Made by a program: the position numbers and the translations under genes. A model generated the notes under the pieces. It made no database searches. It was not told the origin of the DNA and saw only the letters and a program-made list of their open reading frames with translations. This document shows, in pieces, positions 1 through 8,048 of a DNA stretch of 64,000 bases (position 1 is the stretch's first letter; every line of letters begins with the position of its first letter). Source of the stretch: Planctomycetota bacterium (GTDB lineage Bacteria > Planctomycetota > UBA1135). The stretch lies in the NCBI GenBank assembly GCA_021776925.1, contig JAJFFB010000042.1, positions 1-64,000 of the forward strand. Reading direction: 5' to 3'.

Positions 1-24
1 GAATCTGGCCCCCTTCGGTGGCCG
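1..24 (+). repeat. IS left terminal inverted repeat
   Basis: It begins GAATCTGGCCCC and ends TGGCCG. Compared with the reverse complement of the right end it differs at positions 13, 17 and 18 only. Confidence 0.85.
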
Positions 25-30
25 CAAAAA

Positions 31-59
31 CAGGGCCGGGACGTAACGTTCCGGCCCTG
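31..59 (+). other. Subterminal hairpin inside the IS left end
   Basis: CAGGGCCGG pairs perfectly with CCGGCCCTG across an 11-nt loop that can itself pair partly. A stable hairpin just inside the left end, before the transposase start, is a known way for insertion sequences to block transcription or translation entering from the flanking gene. That role is inferred here. Confidence 0.5.
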
Positions 60-97
60 TCTGCGTCTTCCAGGTGTCCCCGCACCCGGAGCACGCC

Positions 98-1120
98 ATG
101 GCCTTTCGTCCCACCTTCTGTCCCAACACCCACTGCCCCACCCGCACCCACACCCGGCCCTTCACCTATCAGCGCCGCGGCTACTTCCGGCGCAAATGCG
201 ACGGCCGTACCGTCCAGCGCTTCAGTTGCCGCAGCTGCGCCCAGCGCTTCAGCAGCCAGACCTTCCGCTTCGACTACCGCTGGCGCAAACCGCGTCTGCA
301 CCTGCGCGTCTTTGACCTCTTCGTCTCCAAGGTCACGATGCGCCAGATGGCGCGTATCACCCGCGTCCGCCGGCCCACCGTAGAGCGCCGCCTCCTGCGT
401 ATCGGCAGCCACTGCAAGGAGTTCCACCGTTTCGTCCTGCACGAGGCCGGGCGCGCCGGCCTCCTCCAGGGCGTCTTCCAGCTCGACGAGCTCGAGACCT
501 TCGAGACCGACCGGCGCCTCAAACCGGTGACCATGCCGGTGCTGATCGAGCGCCACAGCTACTTCGTCGTCTATGGGTCGACCGCGCCGCTGGGGGCCCG
601 CGGTCGGCTGGCGCCGCATCTCAAAAAGCGCAAGGAGCGCTACGAAGCCGCCGAGGGTCGGCGCCGCTCCGGCTCGGTGCGCGCGGTGCGCGAATGTCTG
701 AGCGAATGGGCGCGGGTGCACCGCCGCGGGGTGGGCATGCACCTGCAGAGCGATCGCAAGAGCAGCTACCGGCGCCTGTTCCTGCAGGCGGCAGGAGATC
801 AATTTGGCTCCCACACCACCGAGTCCTCGAGGAGGCGTCGTGACTACGGCAACCTATTGTTTCCCATCAACCACACGCTGGCGATGATGCGCGATGGGAT
901 CTCGCGGCTGGTGCGGCGCAGCTGGGGTGCGGCGAAGCTGCGCGAGCGGCTGGAGGTCCATTTCTGGATCTGGGCGGCGTATCGGAACTACGTGCGCGGG
1001 GTGACGGTGCGCACGCGGGTGACGCCGGCGCAGGCGCTGGGGGTGGTCTCGGGGCGTTATCTGCCGGAGCAGCTTTTGTACTGGCGCTGGCCCGAGTGGA
1101 TGCACACTTACGGCCAATGA
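98..1120 (+). CDS. IS transposase, zinc-ribbon DDE type
   Basis: Predicted 340-residue transposase that would cut and insert the surrounding IS. The N-terminus has a zinc-ribbon-like set of cysteines (C8, C13, then C44-x-x-C47). A helix-turn-helix-like segment follows (VTMRQMARITRVRRPTVERR, about residues 85-105). Acidic residues that could form the catalytic triad occur in FQLDELETFE and LQSDRKSSYRR, followed by NHTLAMMRDGISRLVRRSW, which resembles the end of IS1/IS1595-type catalytic domains. I chose the ATG at 98, with GGAG a few bases upstream. A GTG at 74 would add eight residues. The frame is intact, so the element may be active. Exact family assignment needs a database comparison. Confidence 0.8.
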   Translation: MAFRPTFCPNTHCPTRTHTRPFTYQRRGYFRRKCDGRTVQRFSCRSCAQRFSSQTFRFDYRWRKPRLHLRVFDLFVSKVTMRQMARITRVRRPTVERRLLRIGSHCKEFHRFVLHEAGRAGLLQGVFQLDELETFETDRRLKPVTMPVLIERHSYFVVYGSTAPLGARGRLAPHLKKRKERYEAAEGRRRSGSVRAVRECLSEWARVHRRGVGMHLQSDRKSSYRRLFLQAAGDQFGSHTTESSRRRRDYGNLLFPINHTLAMMRDGISRLVRRSWGAAKLRERLEVHFWIWAAYRNYVRGVTVRTRVTPAQALGVVSGRYLPEQLLYWRWPEWMHTYGQ

Positions 1121-1134
1121 AAGGGGCCAGATTC
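1111..1134 (-). repeat. IS right terminal inverted repeat
   Basis: Reverse complement of the left repeat with three differences. It contains the transposase stop codon (1118-1120). Its outermost bases also supply two bases of the premature stop codon of the interrupted minus-strand gene. Confidence 0.85.
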
Positions 1135-2425
1135 AGTGGTTTGATCTGGATCCAGGCTGCCTCTGATTCGACCTCATCACCGCAGCCAACTCCTTTTCCC
1201 CAATCGCCGAAAACGCCTGGTACAGGATTCCATACCCGCGTCGCACCGGATTCAGAATGCGGCCCGTTCCATGACCCATCAAGGACCCTTGTCCCGGACG
1301 TTGTTGTTTCAAGGTTCGAAGATCTCTGATCAGGTCTTGTACGTGAACCGGTCCTTGATAAACCGCCACCAGATGACCCTTCTGATCAAGCAACAGGCTG
1401 GTTGGCAAGGGGCTTCCGGCAAAGGCACCAACGACTTCGGCGAGCAGAGCTTCGACGGCGAGCAGGAATCGGGAATCGGCCTGGCCAGCGTGCTGATCAA
1501 AGCCGTACTTGGCGATCATTTCGCGTGCCTTGGCCCGCGCCTCATCCGGGTCTGTGGACATCGGCACGATGACCAATCCGAACCTGTCCAGGTCTGCGCG
1601 TCGGCGTTGGAAAGCGTTGTATTCGCGCAGGCAATTGAGGCAATCGGTACCCCAGAGGTTGATCAGGACGGGTTTTCCTGTGAATGACCCGACCTGGCGT
1701 TCAGCATCGTCGTAGGCGGGAATCCGGAGTTTGGCCAGGGGAATCTTCTGGGCCAGGGGTATTCGTACCACGCCCTCCTTGATTTCAGGGAGGGGAGAGG
1801 GGGCCAAAGCGGCGAGGCTGTCGGCATTGGACACCGCGCTGGGTTCAGCGCGACCGCTGCCTTCGACCAGAAGGAATCGGCCGTTGATCTCCACACCGGA
1901 AAAGCTCTCCGAGGTACCGTTGGGCCACACCACAGTGACCTCGTCGACCGACTTCGCTTTGCCGAGGCCGAAGTGCAATCGCTTGGATGACTGGCACAAG
2001 TATCCCTCGCCGGCATGGAGAGTTTGGCGGCAGGTCATGGCGTCGGCCTGAACAATGACATGTGCGCCGATTGCATCACGGTTGCTGGTGGTACCGCGCA
2101 GATTGACAGCCAGGAAGGAGCCTCCGTTCTGCACCCGATTGTGCAGGACACGAAGTCTGGGGGCGGTTCGACTGCGCAGGATGATGTCGAGGCGACCGTC
2201 ATCGTCCCAATCGCTGTAAGCAGTCGAGCGGCCGTCATCGAGGAACTCGGCGGCGGTCAGATTGGAGATGTCAGCAAAACTCCCATCGCCCAGATTTAGC
2301 CAGCTACGGTTGGATTCACGCCCACTCCAGGACGCGCCCTGTTCTCGTACCAGGTTCTGAATGCTGGCCCACGCATTGGCGTAGGCGTCGGACTCTACTT
2401 CTTCGGTCGGGCTCTGCGACGTCAC
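1133..2425 (-). CDS. CRTAC1-like protein, ASPIC/UnbV + TlpA-thioredoxin part (3'-truncated by IS)
   Basis: This is the second half of the gene that starts at 4426. The reading frame is open from just after the in-frame UGA (2443) and continues SFFWRRV into this segment, so the GTG at 2425 is probably not a real start. Visible parts are one last FG-GAP-type calcium loop (DWDDDGRLD), an ASPIC/UnbV-like domain (GAHVIVQAD, HFGLGKA, VTVVWPNG), and a TlpA/AhpC-type thioredoxin fold with the motif CLNC in WGTDCLNCLREY. The product is likely exported with its sister segment, and a redox role is plausible from CLNC. The last residues (RQPGSRSNH) end at a TGA made at the IS junction: host base 1135 plus IS bases 1134-1133. 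Relatives usually carry a further tail here, so the C-terminus is lost. Alternative: an already decaying pseudogene. Confidence 0.75.
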   Translation of the reverse strand: MTSQSPTEEVESDAYANAWASIQNLVREQGASWSGRESNRSWLNLGDGSFADISNLTAAEFLDDGRSTAYSDWDDDGRLDIILRSRTAPRLRVLHNRVQNGGSFLAVNLRGTTSNRDAIGAHVIVQADAMTCRQTLHAGEGYLCQSSKRLHFGLGKAKSVDEVTVVWPNGTSESFSGVEINGRFLLVEGSGRAEPSAVSNADSLAALAPSPLPEIKEGVVRIPLAQKIPLAKLRIPAYDDAERQVGSFTGKPVLINLWGTDCLNCLREYNAFQRRRADLDRFGLVIVPMSTDPDEARAKAREMIAKYGFDQHAGQADSRFLLAVEALLAEVVGAFAGSPLPTSLLLDQKGHLVAVYQGPVHVQDLIRDLRTLKQQRPGQGSLMGHGTGRILNPVRRGYGILYQAFSAIGEKELAAVMRSNQRQPGSRSNH

Positions 2426-2446
2426 GCGTCGCCAGAAGAAACTTCA
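2416..2446 (-). promoter_or_regulatory. In-frame UGA with bSECIS-like hairpin
   Basis: The UGA is at 2446-2444 on the minus strand. Eleven nucleotides later GCGACG pairs perfectly with CGTCGC around the 5-nt loop CGTGA (2432-2416). The loop starts 18 nt after the UGA and has G at its second position. Bacterial SECIS elements are known to place a short stem with such a G-bearing loop about 16-37 nt after the UGA, so geometry fits. Function is inferred; no sel genes are in the window. Confidence 0.5.
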
Positions 2447-4426
2447 CAAATCGTCAGGATCCTTGTTGGTCAGGAAGCCGTTGGGGTTGTAGATGTCGGC
2501 CAAACCGTCGTTGTTGAAATCAAGGAATTGGGAACCCCAGCCCCAGCCGCCGATGGCGACGCCTGACTGCAAGGTGCCATCGGTAAAGGTGCCATCGCCT
2601 TGGTTAACCAGTAAGGTGTTGCCGCGCGCGTGCCGAAGGTAATGACGGTGCTGGTCTTCGTTCTCGCCTTCCATGAACATGTCGGTCTGCGGCACGATGC
2701 GCAATCCCGCAGAAGAGAACATGTTCGTCACCAGAATGTCCATGTCGCCGTCTAGATCGAAATCCGCAGTCGTGGCGCCCATCCCGGCGGCGATGTCTTC
2801 GGCGCCGACGTCAGAAGCGATGTCGGTGAAGTACCCACCGTCATTGCGAAAGAGGTTGTTGCGTCCGAAATCGTTGGCGACGTAAAGGTCGACGTCACCG
2901 TCCAGATCAAAGTCTTCCCATACCCCTGCCAGACTGAACTTCCCATTCACCTTGTCCAGACCGACCTCGGCGGTCGCCAAAGTGAATTGTCCTGGTCCAT
3001 CATTCCTCCAATACAAGTTGGCCGCGCCGTTGTTGGCGTCGTGATAGGGAGTGGGCACGCTGCCCATGACTCCCCCGGTGGCGTATCGCATGGCGTATAG
3101 GTCCAGGTCTCCGTCCTGATCAGGATCCGCTGAGTTGATCGAATAGATGTCTTCCATGCCGGTGCCACGCATTCGCAAGAGCTTGGTAAACACACCGGCG
3201 CCGTTGTTATAGGCCAGGACCAGGTCCGCGCCGACCGAAACCACCAGGTCCTGGTCACCATCATTGTCCATGTCAAGAATCAAGGCACTGCGCGTGGCGT
3301 CGAGGAAACCGAGGCCGGAGGCCACCGTGCCATCGATGACCTTGCCATCGGGCTGATGCAACAACAGACGATTAGGAAGACTGCCCTGCTGCACCAGGTA
3401 GATGTCATCCAGTCCGTCGCCATTGACGTCGCCAACCGCCACACCATGGGCGCCGACGAACGCCGGGCGCAGCAGACGGTCGGCCTTGTTCTGATAGTCA
3501 CCGACACCATGAAGGATTTCACTCTCTACGAAGGGAAGATCCTGCAACACGTGCCCGCTGATATCCGCCAGCAGCGGACCAGGGCTGCTTGCTTCTTCGA
3601 AGCGCAGCAATTTCAAGGACTTCATCCGAACTTCTTCCTCAGGAACGATTTCCCAGGCAATTTCCCATTCAAAATTCTGCTGCACCAGGCGCTCCGAAGT
3701 TTGTCCGCTGAGGTGGCCAATCACGTGGGTGGTGAACCCGCCGACCAGATCCAAATCGACAGAAACAATCTTGGAAAACCCATGCGGCTCGACTCCTTGG
3801 TAGGGGCGTCGAAGGTCTTCGGCCAGGCCGCGCAATCCTGCACTGCCGACGAGCGCAGCCGCTGGATTACTGACGCGCCAAACCGAAATCCCACCGAGGA
3901 CCTTGACGTCTTCGCTAGGCTCGGGCCGCAGCGGAGTCATGCCCTTGAAGGAAGGACCCAGCAGGTTGGCGAGCTGATCCTGGTGCCATTTGGGGGCGGC
4001 GAGCAGGTGGATCCACGCCTTGACCTTGCCTTTGGCCATATCGTGCAGGACTTCACTTTCCCAGCCGTCGGCGCCGGCGTCGCGGCGGCGGAAATTGTCC
4101 TTGGCCCAATCGGGTTGTTCGAAGTCCCTCCGTTCCAGAAGGACATTCGGGTCCTGTTCTGACCCCTGCCCGGGTTCCTGGATGGGCTCCTGCCCAGGTC
4201 CCTGGCTGGACCCAAGCCCGAGTTCCAGGTCGATTTCGGGACCTGGGTCCTGAACTTGCCAGGGACCAGGGTTCGCGCCCGATCCGTCGCCTGGTGCTGC
4301 TTCCAATTCGAGACTGGGTTGGCCTGCTTGGAGGGGAAAAGTGGCCAGGAAGAGGACGGAGACCTGGAGAGGGAGGCGCAGCAAGCCTCCGCATCCGAAT
4401 CGGGTGATGAATTTGGAAGACGGCAT
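2444..4426 (-). CDS. CRTAC1-like secreted FG-GAP protein, N-terminal part (candidate selenoprotein)
   Basis: First 660 codons of a 1096-residue reading frame that continues through the UGA. Residues about 15-35 form a signal peptide. A Gly/Pro/Gln-rich low-complexity stretch with repeated GPGQEP-like words follows (about 45-95). From about residue 300 there is a run of FG-GAP/VCBS repeats with calcium-loop signatures: DVNGDGLDD, DMDNDGDQD, DPDQDGDLD, DFDLDGDVD, DFDLDGDMD and DFNNDGLAD. These build a beta-propeller outside the cytoplasm. The segment ends NKDPDDL-UGA, and the codons after UGA (SFFWRRVTSQSP) continue the same fold, so this is not a natural C-terminus. Either UGA is read as selenocysteine or it is a nonsense mutation. 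Substrate and partner are unknown. Confidence 0.8.
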   Translation of the reverse strand: MPSSKFITRFGCGGLLRLPLQVSVLFLATFPLQAGQPSLELEAAPGDGSGANPGPWQVQDPGPEIDLELGLGSSQGPGQEPIQEPGQGSEQDPNVLLERRDFEQPDWAKDNFRRRDAGADGWESEVLHDMAKGKVKAWIHLLAAPKWHQDQLANLLGPSFKGMTPLRPEPSEDVKVLGGISVWRVSNPAAALVGSAGLRGLAEDLRRPYQGVEPHGFSKIVSVDLDLVGGFTTHVIGHLSGQTSERLVQQNFEWEIAWEIVPEEEVRMKSLKLLRFEEASSPGPLLADISGHVLQDLPFVESEILHGVGDYQNKADRLLRPAFVGAHGVAVGDVNGDGLDDIYLVQQGSLPNRLLLHQPDGKVIDGTVASGLGFLDATRSALILDMDNDGDQDLVVSVGADLVLAYNNGAGVFTKLLRMRGTGMEDIYSINSADPDQDGDLDLYAMRYATGGVMGSVPTPYHDANNGAANLYWRNDGPGQFTLATAEVGLDKVNGKFSLAGVWEDFDLDGDVDLYVANDFGRNNLFRNDGGYFTDIASDVGAEDIAAGMGATTADFDLDGDMDILVTNMFSSAGLRIVPQTDMFMEGENEDQHRHYLRHARGNTLLVNQGDGTFTDGTLQSGVAIGGWGWGSQFLDFNNDGLADIYNPNGFLTNKDPDDL

Positions 4427-4646: not shown

Positions 4647-7112
4647 CTAGCGCTCGACGGGCTGCAGGATCTGGTGCAGGCGGTCGGCGTTGAAATCGTG
4701 CTGGTGCAGGATGTAGACCGCCACGCCCTTTTCACTCGGCGCCTTGCGCCCTATCCACAGCAGGGCGTCGTATCCGGGTTGGCCGAGGAGGACCTTGCGC
4801 AGGGCCTCGCGGGCGCTTTCATCGACCGGCGTGTACACCCCCATGGACGCGCGCGCCGTGGCGATCACCTCAAGACCGGTACTGGCAAGGGGGGCATCCG
4901 GAGCCCCTTCCAGTTCGAAGCCTTGCTGAGTGAGAACCTCGGCCAGCCCCACCACCTGCGCCTTTTCCTCTTCGGTGCGGAAGGAAAGGTCGTCGATTAT
5001 CAGGATGCGTCCGGAATCCTCGCCACGCCCGTTGGTCAGTGCGGCAGCGCTTCTTGGATGCCGCGGCTGCACTCCACCCGTGAGCGCCACTTCAAGGCCT
5101 TCGCTCTGTAGGAACTTGAGCGCGAAACCCCAGCCCTCGCCGTCGAATTCGGGCGCGGAAAGCACGCTTGATGCCTCGGCAGAGGTCATACCGGAATGCA
5201 CTCGCGGTCCGTCGCGGCCCACCTCGATGACACGCGTAGATTGGGCTGATTCCGAAGAGGAGAAGATTACCCCGTTGCCCCACTGGCTGGAGCGGTGTTC
5301 GCGAACAGCCGTGAACGCTCCTGCCACGAGGAGCACCACAAACGCCAGCGCCACCCAGACCCCGCGGTTGGGATTGCTGGTGAAGCACCCGCCGCGTTCC
5401 CGCAGCTGCGCCTTTTTGCCAACCAGATAGGCGCGCTTTTCGGCGATGTGCCGTTTGGCATTCTGGCGTGCCTGACGCGCGGCCTCGCGTGCCTGGCGCG
5501 CGGCTTCGCGCGCCTGCAGTGCGGCGGCGCGGGCGTGGGCCCGCGCCGAACCCGGCACGGGGGGGGGCAAGGTTGCGCCGGCGGCAGCGGCATAGGCGGC
5601 AGTGACCGGGCCCTCGCGATAGGCGGGCCCAGGCAGGGCTTCAAAGGACTCAGGAATGGGCAGCAGGGTGCCCGGCGCGGCTTTGCCGGTCGGCGGCAAG
5701 GGCGGCGGCGGCACCACCGCCGGGTTGACCGCCTGGCCTCCCATGGAAGGCAGATCGGCCGGACGCAGTGCGAACAAATCGTCGGCGAACTGCACCCGGC
5801 GCACGTCGGCGGCCATTTCCGCTGCGTTGGCATAGCGCTGGTTGAGATCGGCCATCGAGCGACGGATGATCCAGGCAACGGTCTCGGGGCAGTTTTTGGA
5901 AACCCGACTCAGGCTGCCGTGCGCCGGGAAGCTGTCTTCAATCATCGAAAACAAGACCGCACCAGCGCCATAAAGGTCGAAGCGCGCGCCGTCGACTTCG
6001 TGCACCTTGGCGCCGCGCAGCGCCTGACGCACCAGCTCCGGATCTCGGTAGTACTCGGTGCCGTGGGTGGTCAGGGTCAGCGCCGAACTCAGCGGTGTGA
6101 CCAGACCGAGGTCGACCAGGTGCGCGCGCCCATTGCGCACGATGATGTTGTCGGGCTTGATGTCTTTGTGCCACAAACCGCCGCAGTGGAAGCGGTCGAG
6201 CGTGGTGAGCAGGTCGGCAAGGTAGCCCAGCGACTCCTTGATCTGTTTGTTGCCCAGCCCCTTCGGCCCGGCCTTGGCGTGCATGCGCTGCACCACCGCG
6301 GAAAGGCTCTCGCCCGGTACATAGGGCATGACGTAGTAGTAACGGCGCTCATCCAGGCCGTGTTCGAGCACCATGCCCATCTTCTTGGCCGATTCCAAGG
6401 CACGGCTCTCGCGCACGATCTGAGATAGATTGGAGCCTTCATCCAAGCCGAAGCACTTGATTACGACCTGCGCCGGAACCGGGTGACCGGCGCGCGCGAA
6501 CTCTTGCTGTTTATCGGCATCGGGCTCGGCAACGTAGAGCTTGGCCCCGGATCCGCCGGTGGGCAGGCTGCCGACCACCTGGAAGCCATCAAAGCCGCGC
6601 CCGCGTTTGGGCTTGTCGCGCCCGGGGGCACCCACCCGGGCCACCGCAGCCTTGGCTGCGCGGCGCTTCAGCAGGCGATGCCGTTTGGGCGCCTTGGCCA
6701 CCGCGCCAGCCGGCGGGGGCAGGTCGGGGCGCAGGCCGCCATCGGCGTCGTAGGCGGCCCGGCGATGGTTGCGTCGCGCCTCAAGCGTTTCGATCAGGTT
6801 GCCGAAGGCCAGCTGATAGAGGGAGCGGCCGGCGCGCAGCCCTTCGGTCTCGAGCTTGCCCCCCCAATGCCGCGCTGCGGACCAGCGCCCAAGGACCACC
6901 TGCAGCAGGATCAGGGGCACGAAGGCCACGCAGGACAGGGTCGAGGCGACCAATTGCAGGAGGTCACGCGCGGAGTGTGTAACGAACATCAGGCTCAGGC
7001 CCGCTACCCAGAAAGCCAATCCGATCAGGCGGAACGCAACAAAAACGCCTAGGCCGGCAGCGGCCACGGCGCCAAGAATGACTACGAAGGGAAGCGAGAG
7101 GGCAGTGGTCAC
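4647..7112 (-). CDS. Membrane Ser/Thr protein kinase
   Basis: An 821-residue Hanks-type kinase. N-terminal hydrophobic segments (about residues 5-75) anchor it. The kinase domain covers about 175-450: a glycine-rich loop (GSLPTGGSGAK), the VIKCFG lysine, the catalytic loop HKDIKPDN and DLGLV in place of DFG. A Pro/Ala-rich linker and an Ala/Arg/Gln heptad-like stretch (REAARQAREAARQAR) follow, then a transmembrane helix (GVWVALAFVVLLVAGAF, about 595-615) and about 200 residues probably outside the membrane, containing ILIIDDLSF. It starts 5 bp after the sigma-factor gene, so the two are one transcription unit. Such kinase/ECF pairs are typical of Planctomycetota, where the kinase is thought to control the sigma factor. 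The target here is not known. Confidence 0.92.
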   Translation of the reverse strand: MTTALSLPFVVILGAVAAAGLGVFVAFRLIGLAFWVAGLSLMFVTHSARDLLQLVASTLSCVAFVPLILLQVVLGRWSAARHWGGKLETEGLRAGRSLYQLAFGNLIETLEARRNHRRAAYDADGGLRPDLPPPAGAVAKAPKRHRLLKRRAAKAAVARVGAPGRDKPKRGRGFDGFQVVGSLPTGGSGAKLYVAEPDADKQQEFARAGHPVPAQVVIKCFGLDEGSNLSQIVRESRALESAKKMGMVLEHGLDERRYYYVMPYVPGESLSAVVQRMHAKAGPKGLGNKQIKESLGYLADLLTTLDRFHCGGLWHKDIKPDNIIVRNGRAHLVDLGLVTPLSSALTLTTHGTEYYRDPELVRQALRGAKVHEVDGARFDLYGAGAVLFSMIEDSFPAHGSLSRVSKNCPETVAWIIRRSMADLNQRYANAAEMAADVRRVQFADDLFALRPADLPSMGGQAVNPAVVPPPPLPPTGKAAPGTLLPIPESFEALPGPAYREGPVTAAYAAAAGATLPPPVPGSARAHARAAALQAREAARQAREAARQARQNAKRHIAEKRAYLVGKKAQLRERGGCFTSNPNRGVWVALAFVVLLVAGAFTAVREHRSSQWGNGVIFSSSESAQSTRVIEVGRDGPRVHSGMTSAEASSVLSAPEFDGEGWGFALKFLQSEGLEVALTGGVQPRHPRSAAALTNGRGEDSGRILIIDDLSFRTEEEKAQVVGLAEVLTQQGFELEGAPDAPLASTGLEVIATARASMGVYTPVDESAREALRKVLLGQPGYDALLWIGRKAPSEKGVAVYILHQHDFNADRLHQILQPVER

Positions 7113-7117
7113 CGGGA

Positions 7118-7867
7118 TCAGTTGGGGTTGGTCCCTAGCCGCGAATCGCCCTCACGTACCTGAGCGTGGTAGATTTCGGCCAGAGCTTCGTCAAAGAGGG
7201 TGTCGTCTGCCTTATTAGGATTCAGCTCCAGTCCGTTTCGCGTTGCTTCGTTGATTTCGTCTTCGGTGAAGGAATAGGTGCCGATGACCTCTTCCAGGCG
7301 CTGTCGCAACATGGTGCGGATTTTGGCCAGCCTGCGGCTGACGGTGGGTTCGCTGATGCCGAGCGAGGCGGCGACCTCTTTGCCGGCGAGGCCGTCCAAA
7401 ACGCGCATGCGATAAATGCTGAAGTCCATAAAATCGGATTCGCTTTCGACGCGGCGCAATCCGGCCTGCACTTTGGCGCGGAAAACCGCCGCCTCGTAGC
7501 CGTGATCGGGGGTCTGAGCAGGCCCCGCAGCCCAACTCTCGTCGTAGCTGGATGGTCTTTTGCCGGAGCCTCGCTTCAGTGCGTTGCGCCGGTCGAGCTC
7601 GTCGCCGAGGACGTGGCGGGCGATGGCCAGCAGCCAGGTCGAAAAGCGGGCGCCCTTGGAAGGGTCGTGGCGATCGATCGAGTCCGACAGCGCCGCCAGG
7701 GTCTCTTGCGAGAGGTCGCGCACCGTTTCGTGGCCGATGCGGCCACGCCCCCAGCGCGACAGCTGGATGTGCAGCACCGGGCCGAAGATCTGCCACAGCT
7801 CATACCAGGCTTCTGGGTCGCGCGCGCGTAGGCGGCCGATGAATCGTGAGGAGAGGCTTTGCACCAT
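7118..7867 (-). CDS. ECF-like RNA polymerase sigma factor
   Basis: A 249-residue sigma-70 family protein. Region 2 spans about residues 10-95 (DPEAWYELWQIF, DLSQETLAAL, FSTWLLAIARH). Region 4 is a helix-turn-helix, GKEVAASLGISEPTVSRRLAKI. A roughly 60-residue tail after region 4 is longer than in minimal ECF factors and could be a kinase or anti-sigma contact. I start at the ATG at 7867 rather than the far-upstream TTG, because a TAGGGT -10 box lies 14 nt before it and the protein then begins MVQSLSSRF. The Ser/Thr kinase gene follows 5 bp downstream, suggesting that phosphorylation gates this factor. Confidence 0.88.
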   Translation of the reverse strand: MVQSLSSRFIGRLRARDPEAWYELWQIFGPVLHIQLSRWGRGRIGHETVRDLSQETLAALSDSIDRHDPSKGARFSTWLLAIARHVLGDELDRRNALKRGSGKRPSSYDESWAAGPAQTPDHGYEAAVFRAKVQAGLRRVESESDFMDFSIYRMRVLDGLAGKEVAASLGISEPTVSRRLAKIRTMLRQRLEEVIGTYSFTEDEINEATRNGLELNPNKADDTLFDEALAEIYHAQVREGDSRLGTNPN

Positions 7868-7881
7868 GGGGAGGTTCCCAG

Positions 7882-7887
7882 ACCCTA
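7882..7887 (-). promoter_or_regulatory. -10 box for sigma/kinase operon
   Basis: TAGGGT on the minus strand, 14 nt before the ATG at 7867, giving an untranslated leader of about 7 nt. No convincing -35 box was seen. Confidence 0.4.
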
Positions 7888-8048
7888 CGTGGCAAGGAGT
7901 GCAGGACGTGAGGAAATGCTCCAGATCGGGCGGAAAAAGGCCGCGAAGGCGAAATCGGACGGTGGGGGATCCCAAAGAGTCTGTGCGGGCCGGGTGTGCC
8001 GGCCGACCTCAAGACCGTCACTCCATGGTAATCAGGAAAAAGCGCATC

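Follow-up and report, generated by a model that had tools for sequence, protein, structure and literature searches.

The minus strand of a 64,000-nucleotide stretch of DNA from a bacterium of the Planctomycetota (hereafter the window) carries a long reading frame that is interrupted by one UGA, and the question is whether this codon ends the protein, possibly in a decaying gene, or is read as selenocysteine (Sec). The original prediction proposed a candidate new selenoprotein. This proposal is strongly supported by the homologues, the downstream hairpin and the selenocysteine machinery, and we conclude from these comparisons that the gene most probably encodes a selenoprotein, with the UGA at 2446-2444 read as Sec (probability about 0.93).

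Gene architecture

As predicted, the frame starts with an ATG at 4426 and ends with a TGA at 1135-1133, and the TGA at 2446-2444 (context NKDPDDL-UGA-SFFWRRV) is the sole internal stop. We counted 436 open codons behind it, close to the 430 given before. The gene and its parts are:

1133..4426, minus strand: candidate selenoprotein gene, FG-GAP/ASPIC (CRTAC1-like) with a C-terminal TlpA-type thioredoxin domain; 1097 residues, putative Sec at residue 661
4322..4426, minus strand: N-terminal signal-like segment, read by eye from translations; several relatives have a lipoprotein-like start
2147..3442, minus strand: FG-GAP beta-propeller region (Pfam PF13517/PF01839; CRTAC1 fold match), from profile and fold searches
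2444..2446, minus strand: UGA codon, probably read as Sec (residue 661), from the homologue alignment
2416..2432, minus strand: bSECIS-type hairpin with a 6-bp stem and the 5-nt loop CGUGA, 11 nt downstream of the UGA, from comparison between genes
1880..2074, minus strand: UnbV_ASPIC domain (PF07593), residues 785-849, from Pfam
1307..1753, minus strand: TlpA/ResA-like thioredoxin domain, about residues 892-1040, from profile and fold matches
1631..1642, minus strand: CLNC redox motif, residues 929-932, from the translation
1..1134, plus strand: insertion sequence with terminal inverted repeats 1-27 and 1108-1134 and a transposase at 74-1120; its right end forms the stop codon of the gene

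With the UGA read through, Pfam detected FG-GAP repeats, UnbV_ASPIC and a thioredoxin-like domain. The scores for PF13517 (118.8 bits) and PF07593 (72.3 bits) lie above the curated cut-offs, which places the protein among the CRTAC1-like FG-GAP/ASPIC proteins, and an AhpC-TSA score of 26.7 bits (cut-off 26), together with the fold matches and the CLNC motif, places its C-terminal part among the TlpA/ResA-like thioredoxins.

The gene had also been described as truncated by an insertion sequence, which is correct insofar as the insertion sequence at the contig start, with 27-nt inverted ends that are 85% identical, supplies the stop codon. However, the C-terminal part is of the usual length, with 436 residues after the UGA compared to about 430-450 in near relatives, and the insertion sequence therefore cost the gene a variable tail at most. 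Its transposase matched an IS1 family model only weakly (32 bits, cut-off 100) and matched no Pfam family.

Conservation of the UGA in a widespread family

The window contains the UGA motif a single time, with 0 occurrences expected by chance. Scanning 84,980 species genomes yielded 16 close loci (L002-L016, L070), which belong to Planctomycetota and Verrucomicrobiota and have TGA at the same codon in 16/16 cases. Within a sample of planctomycete genomes, family matches at E<1e-40 were found in 103/392 genomes and 75/267 genera, most of them with exactly one TGA, and the window's genome itself holds a second copy, 55% identical and likewise with a TGA. The family is widespread in Planctomycetota and also present in Verrucomicrobiota, often with several copies per genome, and with at least six motif matches with TGA in G387.

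The alignment at DDL-x-SFFW, which the original prediction had proposed as a check, was based on 84 distinct homologous proteins from the fetched loci. The site is TGA in 63 of them and a sense codon in the 21 non-Sec paralogues (E, A, Q, D, N, S or R), and Cys occupies it in 8 more distant relatives. The stretch across the UGA had been described as conserved-looking, and indeed coding constraint is equal up- and downstream: on either side of the codon, amino acid identity to relatives is about 0.45-0.5 and variability is highest at third codon positions. Since the identical UGA recurs in dozens of independent assemblies, a sequencing error cannot explain it.

A covarying hairpin downstream of the UGA

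The predicted hairpin, a perfect 6-bp stem that begins 11 nt past the UGA and carries the loop CGUGA with G at position 2, is present. Counting the T of the UGA as 1, the stem pairs are 15-31, 16-30, 17-29, 18-28, 19-27 and 20-26, and all six are standard pairs in 54/62 Sec genes compared to 0/21 non-Sec paralogues. Among 54 aligned genes, the pair 20-26 takes the form G-C 23 times and A-U 22 times. Altogether, 33 cells were altered on both sides of the stem, while the shuffled alignments had a mean of 10.5, none of 500 shuffles reached the observed value and no slid register of the stem approached it. The apical loop is mostly NGUNN, with the G within the first two loop positions as in bSECIS elements. 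The protein motif W-R accounts for part of the conservation of the 5' arm, but the stem is lost in the non-Sec paralogues, although these retain W-R.

When the mRNA 3' of the UGA was folded, the single-sequence energy was not significant (z -0.12). As this energy is unremarkable, the case for the hairpin rests on the comparison between genes. Neither Rfam nor a tRNA scan found a match in the window.

Selenocysteine machinery and Cys homologues

The sel genes that were to be sought in the window's genome, namely those for SelA, SelB and SelD together with tRNA-Sec, are all present; selA, selD and tRNA-Sec share one contig, on which they span about 8 kb or less. Its SelD (L211, G000:C132:48313-49239) has a UGA in its own active site (CSG-U), so that the CRTAC1-like family is accompanied by at least one standard selenoprotein in this organism.

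Between genomes, UGA copies follow the machinery. Whereas selA was found in 242/392 of the sampled planctomycete genomes, about 91/103 family-positive genomes have it (genome lists compared by hand). In the genomes with UGA copies in which selA was missed (G150, G214, G280, G173 and G264), selB scored over the cut-off in 5/5, as it did in all genomes of L005-L014, and G232, G097, G174 and G004 have neither selB over the cut-off nor a UGA copy. One exception is G061, which has no selB over the cut-off, yet its relative L202 bears one TGA and one TAG and is perhaps a pseudogene following the loss of the Sec machinery.

Six of the 8 distant Cys homologues come from genomes without selB over the cut-off, i.e. 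Cys is found mainly where the machinery is absent, a comparison of selB made in G232, G097, G174 and G004; G076 (L158) has a Cys homologue in a genome that does have selA. The homologues of G232, G097, G174, G252, G004 and G076 read D-Y-C-[ST]-x-[FY]-W at the site. These sequences overturn the idea that Cys homologues are lacking altogether. The Cys-motif matches L182-L187 from a pattern scan were rejected as Cys homologues, being unrelated proteins; L182-L185 and L187 apparently form a separate planctomycete protein group with the motif D-[VL]-C-S-[PT]-[FY]-W-R.

In the tree, the Cys homologues form a clade with one Asp member apart from all Sec proteins, whereas the E/A/Q/D/N/S/R paralogues are nested among the Sec proteins, with at least 7 label changes, 5 of them forced by well supported branches. 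The simplest reading of these sequences would be one Sec family with repeated loss of Sec to non-Cys residues, plus a separate Cys lineage. Non-Cys sense residues at the site had been named as an observation that would speak against Sec. Such residues were found, but inside the Sec tree, in paralogues from which the hairpin and, in nearly every case, the CxxC of the thioredoxin domain have disappeared.

If the UGA were an ordinary stop, the gene would be a decaying or truncated copy, or encode a 660-residue protein, and the abutting insertion sequence as well as the insignificant single-sequence fold energy are in line with this. Coding constraint, however, persists past the UGA, and the UGA, the downstream frame, the hairpin and the CxxC are kept over dozens of genera, which rules out the decaying gene raised by the original prediction and leaves an ordinary stop very improbable. 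We regard readthrough of the UGA, or its reassignment to a different, selenium-free amino acid, as just as improbable. The diverse residues of the paralogues (E, A, Q, D, N, S, R) would fit such a reading, but the same gene also ends with a TGA, UGA copies track the Sec machinery from genome to genome, the codon is followed by a SelB-type hairpin and distant homologues from genomes without selB have Cys. Decoding of the UGA at 2446-2444 as Sec would involve SelB and tRNA-Sec, presumably assisted by the hairpin at 2432-2416, for which the comparative evidence is strong.

Coupling of Sec and the CxxC motif

The CLNC motif of the thioredoxin domain, which the original prediction had pointed out, corresponds to a CxxC that is kept in 57/58 full-length Sec proteins and in 1/16 non-Sec paralogues (Fisher p 1.4e-13, uncorrected for kinship). 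This association goes back to few independent events (5-7 changes), and the matched pairs for the CxxC (2:0) and for the hairpin (4:0) are not significant on their own. The co-occurrence points to one redox unit, probably a single relay between Sec and the CxxC within an exported enzyme. The TlpA domain itself is, judged from the sequences, not indispensable, because a few Sec members (L181, L177) lack the TlpA domain or the CxxC, with the TlpA domain missing from UGA copies of L181, and the Cys homologues stop after ASPIC.

Predicted structure and proposed mechanism

An AlphaFold model was built from 49 Sec members chosen among those with a CxxC (mean pLDDT 92, pTM 0.92). In the model, Sec is residue 561 in the CRTAC1-like part and the first residue of the helix 561-567; W565 and R566 follow and are invariant in the 49-member alignment, in which the invariance of the CxxC (C829, C832) is partly due to the selection of members. 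Within the motif D-[LT]-U-[ST]-x-[FY]-W-R, Sec lies beside a conserved Trp-Arg, a placement modelled with good confidence. The best fold match is murine CRTAC1, followed by TlpA/ResA domains. The product is accordingly modelled as a CRTAC1-like FG-GAP propeller with an ASPIC domain and a short helix that has Sec as its N-terminal residue, a position that lowers the pKa of the catalytic selenol in known enzymes.

The signal-like N-terminus and the lipoprotein-like starts of relatives suggest that the protein is exported. Sec may then act as nucleophile on an extracytoplasmic substrate (peroxide, disulfide or similar), with the fused TlpA-like domain as thiol partner in cis, so that oxidised selenium would be resolved by the CxxC, and the CxxC would in turn be re-reduced via a DsbD-type membrane reductase; a DsbD_TM protein is present in the window's genome. 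We consider this sequence of Sec attack, resolution in cis and DsbD-type re-reduction reasonably probable.

Sec could also be inserted as a metal ligand or structural residue without redox pairing with the TlpA domain. FG-GAP propellers bind metal ions, and the Glu, Gln, Asp and Asn found at the site in non-Sec paralogues are possible ligands. In formate dehydrogenase and NiFeSe hydrogenase Sec does act as a metal ligand (PMC13188914). Ala, Arg and Ser occur at the site as well, however, and the disappearance of the CxxC from 15/16 full-length paralogues fits better with the loss of a redox function, while the Cys homologues are compatible with either role. We consider a metal-binding or structural role unlikely. 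The redox relay leads to a broader proposal, which we regard as rather likely: Planctomycetota and Verrucomicrobiota would possess a large class of exported selenoenzymes, present in multiple copies, in which Sec on a CRTAC1-like propeller is recharged by a fused TlpA domain and in which Sec and CxxC have repeatedly been lost together, giving rise to non-redox paralogues.

Relation to known proteins

With CRTAC1 (cartilage acidic protein 1, PDB 9etn) the window protein shares the FG-GAP propeller and ASPIC-type architecture (fold E 1.1e-25, profile E 1.3e-36), from which it differs by Sec and the fused thioredoxin domain; CRTAC1 is not known to be a selenoprotein or to have a thioredoxin domain fused to it. 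With the thiol-disulfide oxidoreductases TlpA and ResA it shares the fold and CxxC of the C-terminal domain, but here this domain is fused to a propeller and Sec lies outside the thioredoxin fold, about 270 residues upstream. UGC-containing TlpA proteins (WAxxUGC selenoproteins; PMC13188914 Table 1, NF041054) are likewise bacterial selenoproteins with an extracytoplasmic TlpA-like domain, but carry Sec within the thioredoxin motif and not outside the domain, and the window protein reached 11 bits against NF041054 (cut-off 300). The SelB-dependent FdhA, SelD, GPx-like and Prx-like proteins have in common with it the in-frame UGA, a downstream hairpin and dependence on SelA/SelB/SelD/tRNA-Sec; the FG-GAP/ASPIC scaffold, in contrast, occurs in none of the 119 inventoried families, and Cys homologues are here confined to a distant clade.

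The inventory in question, published in 2026, covers 119 prokaryotic selenoprotein families without an FG-GAP, CRTAC1 or ASPIC entry, and it includes the families of the Haft 2023 and 2025 papers, both of which it cites (PMC13188914). No selenoprotein model of NCBIfam matched the window protein above its cut-off, and literature searches that paired selenoproteins or selenocysteine with CRTAC1, ASPIC or FG-GAP returned nothing relevant. The family thus appears to be previously undescribed, although a single member may have been mentioned before, as a 2016 planctomycete study lists selenoprotein candidates in a supplement that may include one (PMC4807772). Its absence from inventories is understandable, because selenoprotein discovery pipelines require Cys homologues (PMC12013277), whereas the close paralogues have Glu, Ala, Gln and other residues and Cys occurs only in the distant clade.

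Automatic gene callers cut the genes of this family at the UGA, and the family is therefore likely mis-annotated, in about a quarter of the sampled planctomycete genomes, one of which has six or more copies of the motif. The data suggest that Planctomycetota and Verrucomicrobiota make wider use of selenium than current lists show. Placed on this scaffold, a selenium redox centre would offer a handle on the role of bacterial FG-GAP/ASPIC proteins and, if the mechanism is true, would be one that lies outside the thioredoxin fold and is recharged in cis.

Genomic context of the Sec genes

Upstream of the gene, on the same strand, lie a Ser/Thr protein kinase-like gene (4647-7112, minus strand) and an ECF-type sigma factor gene (7118-7975, minus strand). 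Di-haem peroxidase-like genes (MauG/DHOR) were seen near the Sec genes of L002, L003, L006, L008 and L133; a general linkage to such peroxidases was rejected, since the cases (L002/L003, L006/L133 and L008) are too few. Where several Sec-family copies occur in one genome, they are sometimes adjacent (G387, on C180, C325, C358 and C387; L070; L180; L192). L181 (G044) and G058:C216 are relatives with two in-frame TGA codons, and noted with them was a subfamily that has a DDL-U then P/L-S motif and no TlpA domain.
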